This document shows, in pieces, positions 5,146 through 11,905 of a DNA stretch of 40,835 bases. The notes beneath the pieces were generated by a model, which worked only from the letters and a program-made list of their open reading frames with translations, was not told where the DNA came from and ran no database searches. Each line of letters opens with the position of its first letter. The stretch's first letter is position 1. The position numbers were made by a program, and so were the translations under genes. This DNA comes from Cyanobacteria bacterium SW_9_44_58 (GTDB lineage: Bacteria; Cyanobacteriota; Cyanobacteriia; Cyanobacteriales; Rubidibacteraceae), in contig PXPI01000089.1 in assembly GCA_003021905.1 (NCBI GenBank), positions 1 through 40,835 of the forward strand, written 5' to 3'.

Positions 5146-6090
5146 TTATGTTGTTTTCTGAGGAGTTTCACTCCCTTTAACAGAAGCAGCTTCAATAAAA
5201 ATCCGTTTCACTTCTTCGTGAGATTCCCGAATCGTTTTTTCAATGCGTCGAATGGCTAATTCAATTTCATCAGAAGAAAGCTCATCCCTAAATTCGATAT
5301 TAAGGGCCAACATAATATCTCTAGGACCAAGATGAAATGTGATAGGCGGTTCCATTGCTGAGACGGCTTCATCCGATTTCACCAGTGTTTTAATACTTTC
5401 TCGAATTTCGGGTGAAGCACTTTCTCCCACTAATAATCCTTTCGTTTCGGCAACTAAAATGGTGGCAACAACGGTTAAAAGAATTCCAATAATAATCGAA
5501 GCAATGCCATCATAAATGGGATTTTTCGTAACTTCGCTTAAAAAGACCCCAGCAAAGGCTAAACCCAGTCCCACTAAAGCGGCAAAATCTTCCACAATCA
5601 CAATAAAGGAACTGGGATCTTTGCTTTGACGAATGGCTTGCCAAAGACTAACCTCATCATTGCGAGGATAGTTTTTATTAAATTCCCGAATAGAAATAAA
5701 TAAAGCAGTTCCCTCGAAAATTGAGGCCGCGCCTAAGACAATGTAACTGATTAGGGGAGAACGAGAAGACGCCGTGTGTTGAAAGCTATTAATCCCTTCA
5801 TAGACAGAAACACCGCCCCCTAAGGCAAAAATTAACACGGCAACGACTAACGACCAAAAATAGATTTCTTGACCGTGGCCAAGGGGATGTTGTTCATCCG
5901 GCCCCGCTTCGCTCTGTTTTAGACCATAAAGCAGTAAAATCTCATTAATTGAATCCACAACGGAGTGAATTCCTTCCGAAAGCATGGCAGAACTGCCGCT
6001 GATAGCCGCCCCAACAAATTTAGCAATGCCAATGGCAATGTTAGCTTCCATTGCCGCATAAATCGAAACTTTAGACGATTCTGATGCCAT
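5146..6090 (-). CDS. Cation diffusion facilitator (CDF) family transporter
   Basis: CDF proteins export divalent metals (Zn, Fe, Mn, Co) in exchange for protons. The protein has about six hydrophobic segments. Metal-site motifs are visible: LSEGIHSVVDSINE (the HxxxD pair in helix 2) and VIVEDFAALVG in helix 5. A cytoplasmic C-terminal domain follows, rich in acidic residues (ITFHLGPRDIMLALNIEF). I chose ATG at 6090 (MASESSKVSIY); the longer frame would need a TTG at 6114 and adds eight residues unlike the family. It is divergent from the iron-stress genes, sharing a 225-bp spacer. An iron or other metal substrate would fit that setting, but the sequence does not show this. Confidence 0.85.
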   Translation of the reverse strand: MASESSKVSIYAAMEANIAIGIAKFVGAAISGSSAMLSEGIHSVVDSINEILLLYGLKQSEAGPDEQHPLGHGQEIYFWSLVVAVLIFALGGGVSVYEGINSFQHTASSRSPLISYIVLGAASIFEGTALFISIREFNKNYPRNDEVSLWQAIRQSKDPSSFIVIVEDFAALVGLGLAFAGVFLSEVTKNPIYDGIASIIIGILLTVVATILVAETKGLLVGESASPEIRESIKTLVKSDEAVSAMEPPITFHLGPRDIMLALNIEFRDELSSDEIELAIRRIEKTIRESHEEVKRIFIEAASVKGSETPQKTT

Positions 6091-6114
6091 AAATTCAACT
6101 GTTATCCCAATCAA

Positions 6115-6315: not shown

Positions 6316-7338
6316 ATGGTGAATTCAAACCAGTCGTGGTGGGCGGGAAATGCTCGCCTGACTAATCTTTCCCAAAAATTGCTTGGCGCTCATGTCGCCC
6401 ATGCCGGCTTAATTGTATTTTGGGCCGGAGCAATGACGCTATTTGAACTGACGCAATTTAACCCTAACCAACTCATGTACGAACAGGGGTTAATTTTATT
6501 GCCTCATCTCGCAGCCCAAGGCTGGGGCATTGGTGATGGCGGCGAAATGGTTAGCACTTATCCCTTTTTCGTTATTGGGGCATTGCATCTAATTTCTTCC
6601 GCCTTTTTAGGCTTTGGCGGCATTTTCCACGTTCGCTCACAGGAAGATGTATTGGATCAAAACAAATTCCCGCTTTTCAGTTATGACTGGCAAGACCAAG
6701 ATAAAATGACGACAATTCTGGGAATTCACTTGGTTTTGCTCGGCGGCGGCGCCTTACTGCTAGTGGCGAAAGCCATGTTTTTCGGTGGATTGTACGACCC
6801 CAATTTGGAAACAGTGCGTACAGTGAGCAATCCTACCCTCTCTCCTGGCACTATCTTTGGCTATCTCGTGGGTGCTGAAGGAAAACACTGGTTAGCAGCA
6901 GTGAATAACTTAGAAGATGTGGTTGGCGGTCATATTTGGATCGCGCTGTTATTGATTGGCGGCGGCATTTTTCACATTCTGACGCGCCCCTTTAGTTGGA
7001 CGCAATCGTTATTTGTGTGGTCTGGAGAAGCCTATCTCTCCTACAGTTTAGGGGCATTAGCCTTGATGGGCTTTATTGCCGCTTATTTTATTTCCGTGAA
7101 CACTACCGTCTATCCGGAAGTTTTCTATGGCCCGGCTTTAGACATCCGTCTCAGCATTGTTCCCGTTTTCTCTTCTCCGGATCCTAATTTGGTCTCTGCT
7201 CGCACCTGGTTGGCAAATGCCCATTTCTGGCTTGCCTTCTTTTTCCTGCAAGGCCATATTTGGCACGCCCTGCGAGCTGCTGGGTTTGACTTTCAACAAG
7301 GTCGCGTGGCCAAGGAAAGTGCTTCTTCCATCACATAA
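6316..7338 (+). CDS. isiA: Iron-stress-induced chlorophyll-binding protein IsiA (CP43')
   Basis: The 340-residue protein matches the 340-350 residue IsiA/Pcb family, which resembles CP43 without its large lumenal loop. The N-terminal [25 protein letters not shown] is characteristic. Six transmembrane helices are visible, with paired His residues as chlorophyll ligands ([34 protein letters not shown]). IsiA forms antenna rings around photosystem I in thylakoids and dissipates energy under iron limitation. The ATG follows AAGGAGG. The paralogous fusion gene starts 44 bp downstream with its own strong ribosome binding site, so the two are probably co-transcribed. The C-terminus ends soon after helix six ([17 protein letters not shown]). 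Confidence 0.93.
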
Positions 7339-7382
7339 TTTTTTCGAGGATAAATGAGAAATAATTGCAAGGAGGTTAAAGA

Positions 7383-8879
7383 ATGACCACTGTTGTTGCA
7401 AACAGTCCTAACAAAGAACAAATCCCCACTGTGGGATGGTGGGCTGGCAATACGCGCTTGATTAACTTGTCAGGCAAATTGCTCGGTGCCCATGTCGCCC
7501 ATGCCGGACTAATTACTTTCTGGGCCGGGGCAATGACCCTATTTGAGTTATCCCGTTTCACGCCCGATGAACCCATGTATGAGCAGGGTTTGATTTTACT
7601 CCCCCACTTAACCGCCTTGGGCTTCGGTGTTGGCAGTGAAGGAGAGGTAATTAGCACCTATCCCTATTTTGTCATTGCTGTTCTACATTTAGTTTCTTCT
7701 GCTGTTTTGGGCGCTGGCGGCATTTATCATGCCCTAATTGGTCCAGAGGTTCTGCCCCAGGATAATCAGCGCTTTGCTGGCTTTTTTGGCTACGACTGGG
7801 CCGATAAAGACAAAATGACGACGATTCTTGGGATTCACTTGACGTTCCTCGGCATTGGCGCCTTTTTACTCGTCTCGAAAGCCATGTTTTGGGGCGGTTT
7901 GTTTGACCCTTGGGCTGGCAGTGACGGTGCTGTGCGTGTGGTGAACAATCCCACGCTCAATCCCATTACCATTTTCGGTTATCTTTGGGGGCAACACGGC
8001 TGGCAAGGCATGGCTGCTGTGGACAACTTAGAAGATGTTGTCGGCGGTCATCTCTGGATTAGCTTAATTCTCTTAGCTGGCGGTGCCTTCCATATTCTGA
8101 CTGCGCCCTTTGCTTGGGCACGGCGAGTGCTGTTTTATTCGGGAGAAGCGTATCTGTGTTACAGCCTCGGCGCGATCGCGTATATGGGGATTTTAGCCGG
8201 TTACTTTGTCAGTGTGAATGACACAGTTTATCCCGAAGTATTTTTCGGTGTAGCTGGCAACTGGGAAACTGCAGAGGGAGTTGTTTCCGCACGCGGTTGG
8301 TTAGCTACCTTCCACTATGCCCTCGGTGCCCTCTTCCTACTGGGACATATCTGGCATGCTATTCGCGTTCGCGGTGCTTTTGCCGGCTTTGATTTCCAAC
8401 AAGGCGATGTCATTCGCGCCTATCGAGAAACCAATGAAGGCAACCTTGCCACTCCCGTTAATGCCAATGATCTTACTCTGAAATTTGTTGCCAATCTCCC
8501 CATCTATCGAGATGGCTTATCGCCCCTAATGCGCGGGTTAGAAATTGGGATGGCACATGGCTATTGGTTAATTGGTCCCTTTGCCGTTTTAGGGCCATTG
8601 CGCAATAGCGAATTTGGTTTATTAGCCGCTTTAATTAGTGCTTGTACTTTAATTGTAATTCTCACCGTTTGCCTGTCTCTTTACGGAACTGTTTCCTTTA
8701 GCAAAACGCAAGAAATTTCCGGCAGTTCCTATGTGGATGAAGCAATTCCCAAAGTTCCTGCCGGTATTAAAACTGAAGAAGGTTGGAGTTTATTTAGCGG
8801 CGGATTCCTCGTTGGCGGTGTTGGCGGTGCCATTTTTGCTTACCTGCTCTTAGATCAATTTATTGATTTCGTTTTCTAA
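7383..8879 (+). CDS. IsiA-type chlorophyll-binding protein fused to a PsaL domain
   Basis: Residues 1 to about 345 are a second IsiA/CP43'-type six-helix antenna ([25 protein letters not shown] to [21 protein letters not shown]). Residues from about 365 to 498 are photosystem I subunit XI (PsaL): [38 protein letters not shown], a helix with [13 protein letters not shown], and [19 protein letters not shown]. Such CP43'-PsaL fusions are known in other cyanobacteria. The PsaL part is expected to occupy the PsaL site of monomeric photosystem I and so tether the antenna. AAGGAGG at 7369-7375 precedes the ATG. A strong hairpin terminator follows at 8899. It is probably expressed with isiA under iron or related stress. 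Confidence 0.93.
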
Positions 8880-8898
8880 TTTTTTCCTAACTTAAATG

Positions 8899-8951
8899 TT
8901 TCCCTTGTCTTTTTCTCTATGAAAGGGCAAGGGAAATACTATGCATTTTTT
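8899..8951 (+). terminator. Rho-independent terminator after the isiA-psaL fusion gene
   Basis: TTTCCCTTG (8899-8907) pairs perfectly with CAAGGGAAA (8928-8936). The stem continues inward through G-T and A-T pairs to about 15 bp. A run of T residues lies at 8945-8951 after a short gap. It separates the two antenna genes from the small-protein/flavodoxin unit. Confidence 0.8.
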
Positions 8952-8988
8952 TAGTAAAAATTAAACGAAAAAAAGCAATAAAAAATAC

Positions 8989-9015
8989 TTGACAAAATCT
9001 AGCAATTGATATTAA
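8989..9015 (+). promoter_or_regulatory. Candidate sigma-70 type promoter for the zinc-ribbon gene and isiB
   Basis: A perfect TTGACA lies at 8989-8994. TATTAA at 9010-9015, after a slightly short 15-bp spacer, is the best -10 match. The surroundings are extremely AT-rich, and AATT-centred inverted motifs overlap the -10 region, which could hold a Fur operator. The position fits a new transcript starting just before the 42-residue gene at 9057. Confidence 0.45.
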
Positions 9016-9056
9016 TTTAAATAAAAAGAAAGCAATCTTCTACATTATTTTTCAAA

Positions 9057-9185
9057 ATGAATACTTGTCTTTGCTGTCGAGGACGGCTCTTGTGCCAAAT
9101 TAGTCGGCGTCGAATTCATTGGTTTTGTTCTTACTGCCGCCAGGAAATGCCAGTTGCTATCAAACGACAGCGTAACGTTTCATAA
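9057..9185 (+). CDS. Small zinc-ribbon-like protein, 42 residues
   Basis: A short frame starting at ATG 9057 encodes 42 residues with two CxxC pairs: Cys4/Cys7 near the start (TCLCCRG) and Cys24/Cys27 (HWFCSYCRQEMP). Two CxxC knuckles about 16 residues apart suggest a small zinc ribbon. I recall similar proteins with a WFC..C.QEMP ending being widespread in cyanobacteria without an assigned function. The gene is 35 bp ahead of flavodoxin and follows a TTGACA promoter, so it is probably co-transcribed with isiB. The sequence is basic and could contact nucleic acid or a protein partner; this is inference. Confidence 0.7.
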   Translation: MNTCLCCRGRLLCQISRRRIHWFCSYCRQEMPVAIKRQRNVS

Positions 9186-9220
9186 TTCATCAAAAATCGT
9201 CATACAGTTTCGGAGGTAAC

Positions 9221-9733
9221 ATGACAAAAATCGGATTATTTTTTGGTTCCACAACCGGCAATACTCAAGATATTGCAGAACGCATTCAAGAAGAATTTAG
9301 CGGCGATAATGTCGTGATGCTTCATGAAATTTCTGAAGTGGAAGAAGATGAGTTTAGCGACTATGACAACATCATTATTGCTTGCCCAACTTGGGATATT
9401 GGCCAATTGCAAAGCGATTGGGAAGGATTTTATCTCGATTTAGATGAAGTAGATTTTAGCGGTAAAAAAGTCGCTTACTTTGGTGTTGGTGATCAAGAAG
9501 GGTATCCCGATAATTTTCAAGATGCCATGGGGATTTTAGAAGCGAAAATTTCAGAATTAGGCGGAAAAACCGTGGGTCATTGGTCCACCGATGGCTATGA
9601 TTTTAATGAATCAAAAGCTATTAAAAATGGCAAGTTTGTCGGGTTAGCCCTCGATGAAGATAATCAAGCTGATCTCACAGATGAACGAATCAGTGTTTGG
9701 GTAAAGCAACTAAAAGATGAATTTGCTCTTTAA
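9221..9733 (+). CDS. isiB: Flavodoxin (long-chain)
   Basis: This FMN electron carrier replaces ferredoxin at photosystem I and FNR when iron is scarce. The phosphate-binding loop GSTTGNTQ is at residues 9-16. The aromatic stretches PTWDIGQLQSDW and FGVGDQEGYPDNF are the two FMN-flanking loops, and the extra strand loop typical of long-chain flavodoxins is present (170 residues). The protein is strongly acidic, as usual. GGAGG at 9212-9216 precedes the ATG. It lies downstream of the isiA genes but behind a terminator and a candidate promoter, so it may be transcribed separately from them. Confidence 0.97.
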   Translation: MTKIGLFFGSTTGNTQDIAERIQEEFSGDNVVMLHEISEVEEDEFSDYDNIIIACPTWDIGQLQSDWEGFYLDLDEVDFSGKKVAYFGVGDQEGYPDNFQDAMGILEAKISELGGKTVGHWSTDGYDFNESKAIKNGKFVGLALDEDNQADLTDERISVWVKQLKDEFAL

Positions 9734-9815
9734 ATGTTAATTAGGAGTTAATGGTTAATTTCAATTATTAATTATTAACTCTTTTAAAAGATGAAGTTTT
9801 TTTTAGGGAAAGAAT

Positions 9816-10103
9816 ATGATGTTACAAATTATTTGCTTTTGCTGTAGCTGGGGACTAATCATTTTCTTAACTTGGAGTGCCTTACGAGCAACAATAAGAG
9901 GGGTCAAATATGTCAAAACTTTACACCAAATTCCTTGTAGTCGCCGTGCCTTTTTCACAAATAACTATTGCTTAAAATGTACGGTTCATCCTTATGAAGC
10001 TGGAACTGAATTAGCGATTAATTGTCAAGAGTTTGAACCAAAACCGGAAATCGATACTTCTAATTCTTATCACCAGACAAGACCTTATCAAGTCAATATT
10101 TGA
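9816..10103 (+). CDS. Conserved cyanobacterial small membrane protein with four cysteines
   Basis: The 95-residue protein has one N-terminal hydrophobic helix (residues 3-24). A short soluble part follows with Cys41, Cys52, Cys55 and Cys70 in the setting HQIPCSRRAFFTNNYCLKCTVHP and ELAINCQEFEP. I recall this IPC...LKCTVHP pattern in uncharacterised cyanobacterial proteins. The four Cys could bind a metal or Fe-S cluster, or form disulfides. It lies between flavodoxin and the IsiC-like gene on the same strand, with gaps of 82 and 40 bp, so a role in the iron-limitation response is likely from context. No function is established by the sequence. Confidence 0.75.
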   Translation: MMLQIICFCCSWGLIIFLTWSALRATIRGVKYVKTLHQIPCSRRAFFTNNYCLKCTVHPYEAGTELAINCQEFEPKPEIDTSNSYHQTRPYQVNI

Positions 10104-10143
10104 ATCAATTACTTTTAGCGTATTCCTAAAACATTGAACAATT

Positions 10144-10896
10144 ATGTCACGAGAACCTATTGCTGTTTGGCTAACACCGAATCCTGTTTTTCACGGATTC
10201 CATTCTCCTTTATTAAGTTATCTTTCTCAAGCTGGTCCCATTGCTCATTGGGAATATTTACAAAATCAAGATGAAGGCACTTCTATCGATAATGTTTTAG
10301 CATCTGTTCAAGATTATTTGGAAACATTATCTCAACCCATTCATCTCATTGGGCACGGGATTGGCGGTTGGTTAGGATTGCTTTATACCCGTCAATTTCC
10401 AGAACAAATTAAATCTTTGACCTTATTAGGCGTCGGAGTAGATCCGGCTTTAGATTGGCAAGCCTATTACTATAGTTTATTTAAGCATTTACATTGTCCC
10501 CAACAGATGATTTTAGAACAGATTGTTTATAGTTTGTTTGGGGAACAAAATCCAACAATGACTCATTATTTATTAGAAGTTTTACGACGGGATTTGCTAT
10601 CTTCTCCTTCTCCCCATTCTCTTTATCAACAAATCAATGGAGAAGAAGGAGGCGTTGAAGTTCCCTTATTAGTTTGTGGCAGTGAAAACGATTTAATTGT
10701 GCCGCCAACAGCGATTAAAGGTTGGCGAAAGTATTTACATCAGTGGGATTACGTTTGGTTAATCCCCTATGGGCATCATTTCTTCCATTATTTTTATCCT
10801 TCTCTTGTTACCCCTCCAATTTTAGAGTTTTGGCAATCTAATGATCAATTCTCCCAAATAGAAAGTTCCTGCTGGGAATACTCTTGGCTCAAATAA
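10144..10896 (+). CDS. isiC: Alpha/beta-hydrolase-fold protein, IsiC-like, lacking the nucleophile serine
   Basis: The 250-residue protein has an alpha/beta hydrolase fold: an oxyanion region near HGFHSPLLSYL, the elbow IHLIGHGIGGWLGLLY at residues 66-81, a candidate acid Asp183 in GSENDLIVPP and His211/His212 in PYGHHFFHY. The elbow reads G-H-G-I-G, with Gly72 (codon GGG) where catalytic Ser would stand, so ordinary hydrolase chemistry is not expected. Position after isiA and isiB matches IsiC of other cyanobacteria, where the role is poorly defined. I believe, from memory and unverified, that other IsiC proteins share this non-Ser elbow. The gene closes the iron-stress cluster. Confidence 0.8.
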   Translation: MSREPIAVWLTPNPVFHGFHSPLLSYLSQAGPIAHWEYLQNQDEGTSIDNVLASVQDYLETLSQPIHLIGHGIGGWLGLLYTRQFPEQIKSLTLLGVGVDPALDWQAYYYSLFKHLHCPQQMILEQIVYSLFGEQNPTMTHYLLEVLRRDLLSSPSPHSLYQQINGEEGGVEVPLLVCGSENDLIVPPTAIKGWRKYLHQWDYVWLIPYGHHFFHYFYPSLVTPPILEFWQSNDQFSQIESSCWEYSWLK

Positions 10897-11065: not shown

Positions 11066-11905
11066 TTAAGTTTTCCCTTCCGAGGGCCTTGATTGATTGA
11101 GGATGGGAAGCAAATAAGCAATTAATGCTGCTGAAGCAAATCCGAGAATATTCCGGAGTAAGGGTAACCAATCAGCAGTTCGGGTAACCACCGGTCCAAT
11201 CCCAAAGGCAATAAAGAGAATGCCCCACAGCGGCGAAAACATTAATGCCCATTGCCAAGCTACAATTTGATCCTCGGTGCGCGGTTTGGCGGCGAAACCA
11301 AAGACTAGCCCCCCAACAACGGAAGTAATGAGGGTTAAAATCCATTGGTCTTGCGGTAACCCCGGGACAACATCACATCCCCCTTCTGCTAAACAGCCCT
11401 TAACGGTATCGAGAGAGGCCGCGATCGCGTTATTTTCGCCATTTTCTCTCACATAGTACATATTGCCAAAGCGGGTTTGCAGTTCTACCCAGAAGGTGCG
11501 CGGCAACAGATCATAGACATCGTCCCCCACATTAAATGCCAGCAGATTTCCCCCGCGGGCATCGGCAATGAGCAGCACACTTTTATCATTTAAATCCCAA
11601 TACTCTTTAACCGCCCGTCCCGGGGTACGGTCATATTGCGTCAAAATACGCAGTTTCCAGCCTGTTTCTCCTTCAAATTGTTTAATCTTTTCCGTTAAGG
11701 ATTCTTCTTGCAGTTTCGGTAGAAAATTCGCTAAATCAATAATGGGCGTTTGCTGTTCCGGCAACAGAGAGGGATCATCGTAAGCTTGGGCTTGATGGGG
11801 ATGGGTCAGCCAAGCCGTTAAACCAAAGCAACAACTGATAAAAAGAACAAGGAGACGTTGCCAAGACGGAATGGACATTTTTATATCGCTGATTTGTTTC
11901 CACAT
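11066..11905 (-). CDS. psb32: TPM-domain thylakoid protein, Psb32/TLP18.3 family
   Basis: Psb32-type proteins help photosystem II repair and protect against photodamage. The N-terminus is a signal peptide (LLVLFISCCFGLTAWL, likely cut after AQA before YDD). A TPM domain of about 130 residues follows, with FLPKLQEESLTEKIKQFE, LRILTQYDRTPG and the conserved KSVLLIADARGGN strand. Two or three transmembrane helices close the protein (VVGGLVFGFAA, WGILFIAFGIG, ILGFASAALIAYLLP). The ATG at 11905 gives 279 residues; an inner ATG at 11878 (MSIPSWQR) would give a more ordinary signal peptide. It converges with isiC. Confidence 0.82.
   Translation of the reverse strand: MWKQISDIKMSIPSWQRLLVLFISCCFGLTAWLTHPHQAQAYDDPSLLPEQQTPIIDLANFLPKLQEESLTEKIKQFEGETGWKLRILTQYDRTPGRAVKEYWDLNDKSVLLIADARGGNLLAFNVGDDVYDLLPRTFWVELQTRFGNMYYVRENGENNAIAASLDTVKGCLAEGGCDVVPGLPQDQWILTLITSVVGGLVFGFAAKPRTEDQIVAWQWALMFSPLWGILFIAFGIGPVVTRTADWLPLLRNILGFASAALIAYLLPILNQSRPSEGKT

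Follow-up and report, generated by a model that had tools for sequence, protein, structure and literature searches.

A four-cysteine microprotein encoded directly before flavodoxin in the iron-stress locus of a Halothece-like cyanobacterium

The isi operon was first described in the 1980s, and isiAB is the standard marker of cyanobacterial iron starvation. The stretch of DNA analysed here (the window: all 40,835 nt of contig PXPI01000089.1 from Cyanobacteria bacterium SW_9_44_58) belongs to a Halothece-like cyanobacterium and carries its iron-stress (isi) locus. The locus is of a known kind, and so is its presumed first transcription unit, which encodes the plain antenna protein IsiA and a fusion of IsiA with PsaL. 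The locus also encodes an uncharacterised four-cysteine microprotein, p42, whose gene directly precedes the flavodoxin gene isiB in many cyanobacteria. In the explanation proposed here, unit 1 would make the antenna ring, and the PsaL half of the fusion would sit in PsaL's seat, so that the antenna is carried on monomers of photosystem I (PSI). Unit 2, with a promoter of its own, would make p42, flavodoxin, the 95-residue protein p95 and the hydrolase-fold protein IsiC. Within it, p42 would be a small regulator or adaptor in the flavodoxin branch, carrying the same ribbon that fronts GAF/GGDEF signalling modules, and p95 a membrane-anchored cysteine protein that accompanies the antenna genes as an antenna accessory. 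The gene anatomy of the locus is held with high confidence and the proposed regulatory or adaptor role of p42 beside flavodoxin tentatively; the explanation as a whole, a blend of the two, is held with moderate confidence.

isiA, isiB and a hydrolase gene share one locus and one strand, as in an isi operon. An earlier note, made from the sequence alone, had described a six-gene cluster at 6316-10896, and all six open reading frames (ORFs) are intact where claimed, the 42-residue protein with two CxxC pairs and the hydrolase-fold protein (the latter also by Pfam) among them; 44 bp separate isiA from the fusion gene, and a CAAGGAGG site is present for each of the two. The same note's view of the gene set as one conserved locus also holds, with isiA, the fusion, p42, p95 and the hydrolase present in four other members of the genus and flavodoxin in three of these four. 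Those three retain the full order (isiA, fusion, p42, flavodoxin, p95, hydrolase), and the fourth differs from it only in lacking flavodoxin. The nearest named relative found is a Halothece metagenome-assembled genome, whose fusion is 85% identical. In one further genus member (G002, 99% complete), searches at the chosen cut-offs detected neither flavodoxin nor the fusion, and neither plain isiA nor p42.

The p42 microprotein

The position of p42 was assessed across 386 genomes searched for flavodoxin. The 74 strong places (E below 1e-60, window included) were counted, and weaker or partial places, mostly from the small-genome family f41, were left out of the 74. The other 73 regions were fetched, up to 15.5 kb each, and their neighbours scored with profiles trained on those loci; the raw counts and Fisher tests that follow treat related genomes as independent. 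In 21 of the 74 loci, p42 is encoded on the isiB strand at most 600 bp upstream of that gene; these 21 come from several families, and six of them lack an isiA within 7.5 kb. Copies so placed account for 20 of the 23 p42 matches in the fetched regions, and in two further loci (L133 and L160) p42 comes after a flavodoxin-isiA pair. Only three of the 22 loci with the fusion have p42 in this position, all three from the window's genus, versus 18 of the 52 loci without it (Fisher p 0.09), a direction opposite to the co-occurrence with PsaL-fused IsiA that the earlier note had put forward. Because p42 stands upstream of isiB in these 21 loci, six of them without isiA, and shows no enrichment beside the fusion, its association appears to be with flavodoxin and not with the light-harvesting ring. 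Its position and spread thus tie p42 to the flavodoxin branch, where it would most likely serve as a small regulator or adaptor. Two other arrangements may be recorded here: in locus L150, isiA followed by p42 occurs twice in tandem ahead of one flavodoxin, and in the Xenococcus locus L086, a named fusion locus outside the 74-locus counts, fusion, p42, flavodoxin, p95 and hydrolase are consecutive.

Three observations weigh against tying p42 to flavodoxin in this way and against the division of labour drawn from it. First, the genus member that lacks flavodoxin (L061, contig C137 of G004, an 85% complete assembly) retains isiA, fusion, p42, p95 and hydrolase, and p42 standing beside antenna genes there without a detected flavodoxin counts against a flavodoxin-only role. 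Second, a listed flavodoxin is no more than 1 kb away at 11 of the best 150 p42 places, such a flavodoxin being present in only 44 of the 82 genomes that have a listed p42, and the family is found mostly elsewhere. Third, once kinship is taken into account, comparing fusion or isiA with p95, p42 or the hydrolase leaves two supported independent pairs in each case, too few to decide on the link of p95 with the antenna genes.

The first of these observations also bears on the earlier note's own reading, in which a single machine for PSI-IsiA assembly or for handling pigment or iron would include p42, p95 and the hydrolase alike. The three share a locus within the genus, p42 stays with the antenna genes in G004, and p95 is commoner in loci with the fusion (14/22, versus 15/52 without; Fisher p 0.009) or with isiA (26/54 versus 3/20; p 0.015); on raw counts, the co-occurrence with PsaL-fused IsiA that had been proposed is borne out for p95. 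Moreover, the Synechocystis counterpart of the hydrolase gene, sll0249, is described in the available parts of the respective papers as co-transcribed with isiA and isiB (PMC3516471) and as strongly iron-induced (PMC3516471, PMC11221513). Against a single machine stand the six loci in which p42 precedes flavodoxin with no isiA nearby and its lack of enrichment with the fusion. The hydrolase, too, does not seem to need the antenna, since it follows isiB in 16 of the 20 loci without isiA and in 33 of the 54 with it (49 of 74 overall). As such, the shared locus and, on raw counts, the p95 association survive from that reading, p42 tracks flavodoxin instead of the fusion, and a common PSI-IsiA machine appears unlikely.

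A second alternative, which we consider doubtful, takes p42 to be one of several general-purpose zinc-ribbon paralogues that happens to stand at isiB without an iron-specific job. The searches for the p42 and p95 families scored limited candidates per genome with profiles built mostly from isi loci, and the best 150 places of each were considered. Among the candidates scored, the p42 family occurs in 98 of the 386 genomes with one to six copies each (six-sequence profile, E 0.001), and 139 of its best 150 places have no listed flavodoxin nearer than 1 kb, as would suit such a paralogue. This reading has to contend with the recurrence of p42 before isiB across several families, with the minimum of eight changes of the isiB-linked state on a quick flavodoxin tree and with the single p42-family match at E 0.001 in the window genome. 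The earlier note had held that its interpretation would suffer if the two small genes lay mostly away from isi genes. As families they do, with 11 (p42) and 29 (p95, within 8 kb) of the best 150 places near a listed flavodoxin, whereas the window's own p42 and p95 orthologues do not.

p42 is a real, selected gene. Purifying selection is evident from dN/dS values of 0.11-0.25 over the first 33 codons in the seven scorable of ten genus pairs (the other three were left out, their synonymous sites being saturated), and the cysteines are conserved across distant lineages. It is therefore very unlikely that p42 is only a leader ORF that couples or times flavodoxin translation with an irrelevant product, as might be suspected from the very short gap between its stop and the flavodoxin start in three relatives (2, 9 and 20 nt; 35 nt in the window) and from an AAGGAG site for flavodoxin within the end of p42 in L002, given also that stand-alone copies occur away from flavodoxin and that large proteins contain the domain as well.

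As to what the protein is, p42 conforms to a cyanobacterial family pattern, CPCCxxxLLRH...YWFCxxCRQEMP, with the spacing C-x2-C-x16-C-x2-C, and the W/Y-F-C and Q-x-MP elements, and has no Pfam or NCBIfam match above cut-off. Its AlphaFold model is a beta hairpin (mean pLDDT 73) whose best fold matches are the Rpb9/C11 zinc ribbons of RNA polymerase and Thermus ZifS; this resemblance is weak (E 0.2 or worse) and comes with no demonstrated sequence relation, and the lack of any match reaching E 0.001 speaks against a zinc-ribbon identity. A sequence search of the PDB with p42 and p95 returned nothing credible. On the cysteine pattern and the model, p42 is nevertheless likely a zinc ribbon and a putative zinc binder. 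The same type of ribbon also lies at the N-terminus of larger proteins: seven of ten relatives scanned are long, six of these seven have GGDEF, and the seventh has a GAF match and a receiver match below cut-off. In loci L194-L200, the ribbon heads GAF/GGDEF and PAS/GAF/GGDEF proteins, and no Pfam model covers it at cut-off. On a more specific version of the preferred reading, p42 would be a stand-alone copy of this front module that reports metal or redox state and tunes flavodoxin production or a c-di-GMP pathway, a suggestion that is speculative and rather improbable.

A relationship to NblD/NsiR6, a phycobilisome-degradation microprotein that is likewise cyanobacterial and equipped with two cysteine pairs, was considered and rejected on cysteine spacing, NblD having C-x2-C and C-x7-C 27 residues apart and p42 two C-x2-C pairs 16 apart. 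A search of the open PMC literature, limited to the wordings used and with subscription papers outside its scope, found no paper on the isiA-isiB interval and none that combines a cyanobacterial zinc ribbon with GGDEF and a small protein.

Organisation of the locus

The features of the locus are collected in Table 1. The locus probably comprises two transcription units, the second with its own promoter. The 85 bases after the fusion gene (8876-8960) fold at -24 kcal/mol, and none of 200 shuffles is equally stable. A similar hairpin precedes p42 in three relatives and the spacer of L121 differs, and the TTGACA region recurs upstream of p42 in all four other genus members with p42, both as read by eye. 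It is this conservation that supports hairpin and promoter; the standard scans miss both, a generic terminator scan failing to list the hairpin and a consensus promoter scan the TTGACA site at 8989. Thus, the strong terminator and the TTGACA promoter named by the earlier note are backed by a stable fold and by kept sequence, and not by the scans.

Table 1. Features of the isi locus in the 40,835-nt window
Feature	Position	Strand	Details
isiA (CP43', plain chlorophyll-binding antenna), gene 1 of unit 1	6316..7338	+	340 aa; TIGR03041 433.5 bits, cut-off 335; ribosome-binding site CAAGGAGG
isiA-psaL fusion (IsiA2 / CBPV type), gene 2 of unit 1	7383..8879	+	498 aa; PSII 252.3 bits and PsaL (PF02605) 202.7 bits
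Terminator-like hairpin between units, T run 9 bases past the stem	8899..8936	+	fold z -5.1; similar hairpin by eye in L122, L002, L061
Presumed unit 2 promoter, TTGACA-17-TTAATT	8989..9017	+	by-eye conservation in L121, L122, L002, L061
p42, zinc-ribbon-like microprotein with two CxxC pairs, immediately before isiB	9057..9185	+	42 aa; dN/dS; family; AlphaFold hairpin
isiB, long-chain flavodoxin	9221..9733	+	170 aa; TIGR01752 230.2 bits, cut-off 146.75
p95, N-terminal membrane helix and IPCxxC..LKC..C motif	9816..10103	+	95 aa; conserved family; modelled helix 2-38
isiC, alpha/beta-hydrolase fold, elbow GHGIGG without nucleophile serine	10144..10896	+	250 aa; Abhydrolase_1 (PF00561) 36.9 bits, cut-off 25.8

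We infer that unit 2 would respond to iron in the window organism. When the FurA consensus AAATAAATTCTCAATAAAT, as given in the available part of PMC4005646, was scored on eight upstream regions against 300 single-base shuffles, the best scores, 12 to 14 of 19 matches, were equalled by 13 to 284 of the 300 shuffles across the eight regions (lowest for isiA of L121 with 13, then 63 for the window's isiA and 284 for its p42), and no significant FurA-box match precedes p42 in any of the five genomes.

The cluster is taken to end at 6316 and 10896, bounds that were set because neither flanking gene matched in other fetched loci (tblastn, E 1e-10). On one side, a cation diffusion facilitator (cation-efflux) gene (5146-6114, minus strand) is divergent from isiA and has no match in any fetched locus; on the other, a TPM-domain, weakly Psb32-like gene (11066-11905, minus strand) is convergent with the cluster and has none except the window's own region in L031. 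Both were therefore rejected as cluster members.

The Synechocystis isi operon resembles the window in having isiA, isiB and then a hydrolase-fold gene (sll0249). Among the genomes searched, one genus (that of G043) is called Synechocystis-like here because two of its genomes contain an exact match to an nsiR6 primer of PCC 6803; two of its three isiB loci (L166 and L168) have a p42-like ORF between isiA and isiB and the third (L152) does not, and, unlike the window, none of the three has a fusion. The adjacent Synechocystis gene ssl0461 encodes 83 residues according to the available part of PMC2823733. By place and length, it matches the 83-residue DUF2555 protein in L168 and not p95. The possibility that p95 is ssl0461 was rejected on that length, on the finding that in this Synechocystis-like genome the hydrolase is followed by an 83-residue ORF of the DUF2555 type, and on the lack of any p95 match there at E 1e-6.

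Antenna fusion, p95 and IsiC

The fusion belongs to the known PsaL-fused kind, as the earlier note had said. Its N-terminal part is a six-helix IsiA/Pcb antenna domain (TIGR03041 388.9 bits, cut-off 335), its PsaL domain lies at residues 345-493 of the same polypeptide, and residues 17-491 align in a single alignment with chain 1 of PDB 7y3f at 642 bits. According to the available part of PMC9938196, 7y3f shows the PSI-IsiA monomer of Anabaena, where IsiA2 occupies PsaL's place with its C-terminal domain; the Nodularia PsbC-PsaL hybrid (CBPV) was described with the same idea in 2013 (PMC3610870, available part). Like the window protein, IsiA2 of Anabaena PCC 7120, IsiA4 of Leptolyngbya and Nodularia CBPV join a CP43-like antenna to a PsaL domain, and the CBPV gene is likewise close to isiA-type genes, flavodoxin and hydrolase (available parts of PMC9938196 and PMC3610870). 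From full-length similarity, the window fusion may be expected to take PsaL's place in PSI monomers, as shown for Anabaena. The Anabaena IsiA2 residues W426/F427/N451/W454, which differ from PsaL, are S/F/S/F in the window by hand count; they mark one species' protein and not the family. In the window the fusion is followed by p42, whereas p42 precedes isiB in none of the Nostocales fusion loci scored. Elsewhere in the window genome, locus L219 (G000 contig C119, 3113-5298) holds a second isiA/Pcb-like pair of 350 and 353 residues, which are 53-55% identical to the antenna part of the fusion; no such pair was found in the five other genus members searched (E 1e-8).

p95 carries the motif LHQIPCxxCxYFTxDYRLKCTVHPxxAxSExAIxCxDF after its one N-terminal helix, and the model is confident (block-mean pLDDT 94-97) for residues 1-30 and low beyond. 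The earlier note had called it a four-Cys membrane protein. The window p95 does have four cysteines after the helix, but these are not the family's four: residue 44 (9945-9947), the second family cysteine position, is Arg in the window and Cys in all 21 others of the alignment, and the window protein carries an additional Cys eight residues further on, at 52. The Arg 44/Cys 52 difference may be a real change or an assembly error. p95 occurs in 29 of the 74 flavodoxin regions, and its family in 112 of the 386 genomes (E 1e-6, among candidates scored), where the top ranks favour isi loci because the profile was built from them. Three genus members have a second copy and the window genome has one. 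Around paralogues at 17 non-isi loci, no neighbour within about 1.5 kb on each side recurs in more than four, barring overlapping frames of p95 itself. Pfam gives p95 no match above cut-off and none to DUF2555, and a fold search found nothing at E 10. If either of the two small proteins is an antenna accessory, p95 would be the likelier one.

By position and fold, the window hydrolase is IsiC, the counterpart of sll0249, which we take to be isiC. It lacks the nucleophile Ser of GxSxG, its GHGIGG lying on the lipase elbow GHSLGG of 4opm. Among 73 distinct IsiC segments (at least 250 bits and at least 200 residues), the elbow residue is Gly in 46, as in the window, and Ser in 27. All 73 keep the partner Asp (residue 179 in the aligned segment, 183 in the protein), and 45 of the 46 Gly-types and 24 of the 27 Ser-types keep the partner His (211/215); on a quick tree from which the elbow columns were left out, the Ser/Gly state changes at least nine times. 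A Gly at the nucleophile elbow is also seen in alpha/beta-hydrolase pseudoenzymes such as NDRG; unlike them, IsiC keeps Asp and His and has repeatedly switched between Ser and Gly. Since the hydrolase pocket is kept while the serine is often missing, IsiC is more likely to be a ligand binder or to perform unusual chemistry than to be an ordinary esterase.

Implications

The conserved p42 before flavodoxin, which is also found in Synechocystis-like genomes, would be a further part of the isiAB system, and its membership in a ribbon family that heads GGDEF proteins offers a first handle on that family. Should p42 indeed report metal or redox state, an overlooked regulator would lie inside a long-known iron-stress operon. 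Additionally, the repeated switch between Ser and Gly in IsiC leads to a simple prediction for a gene product that is still without a function.

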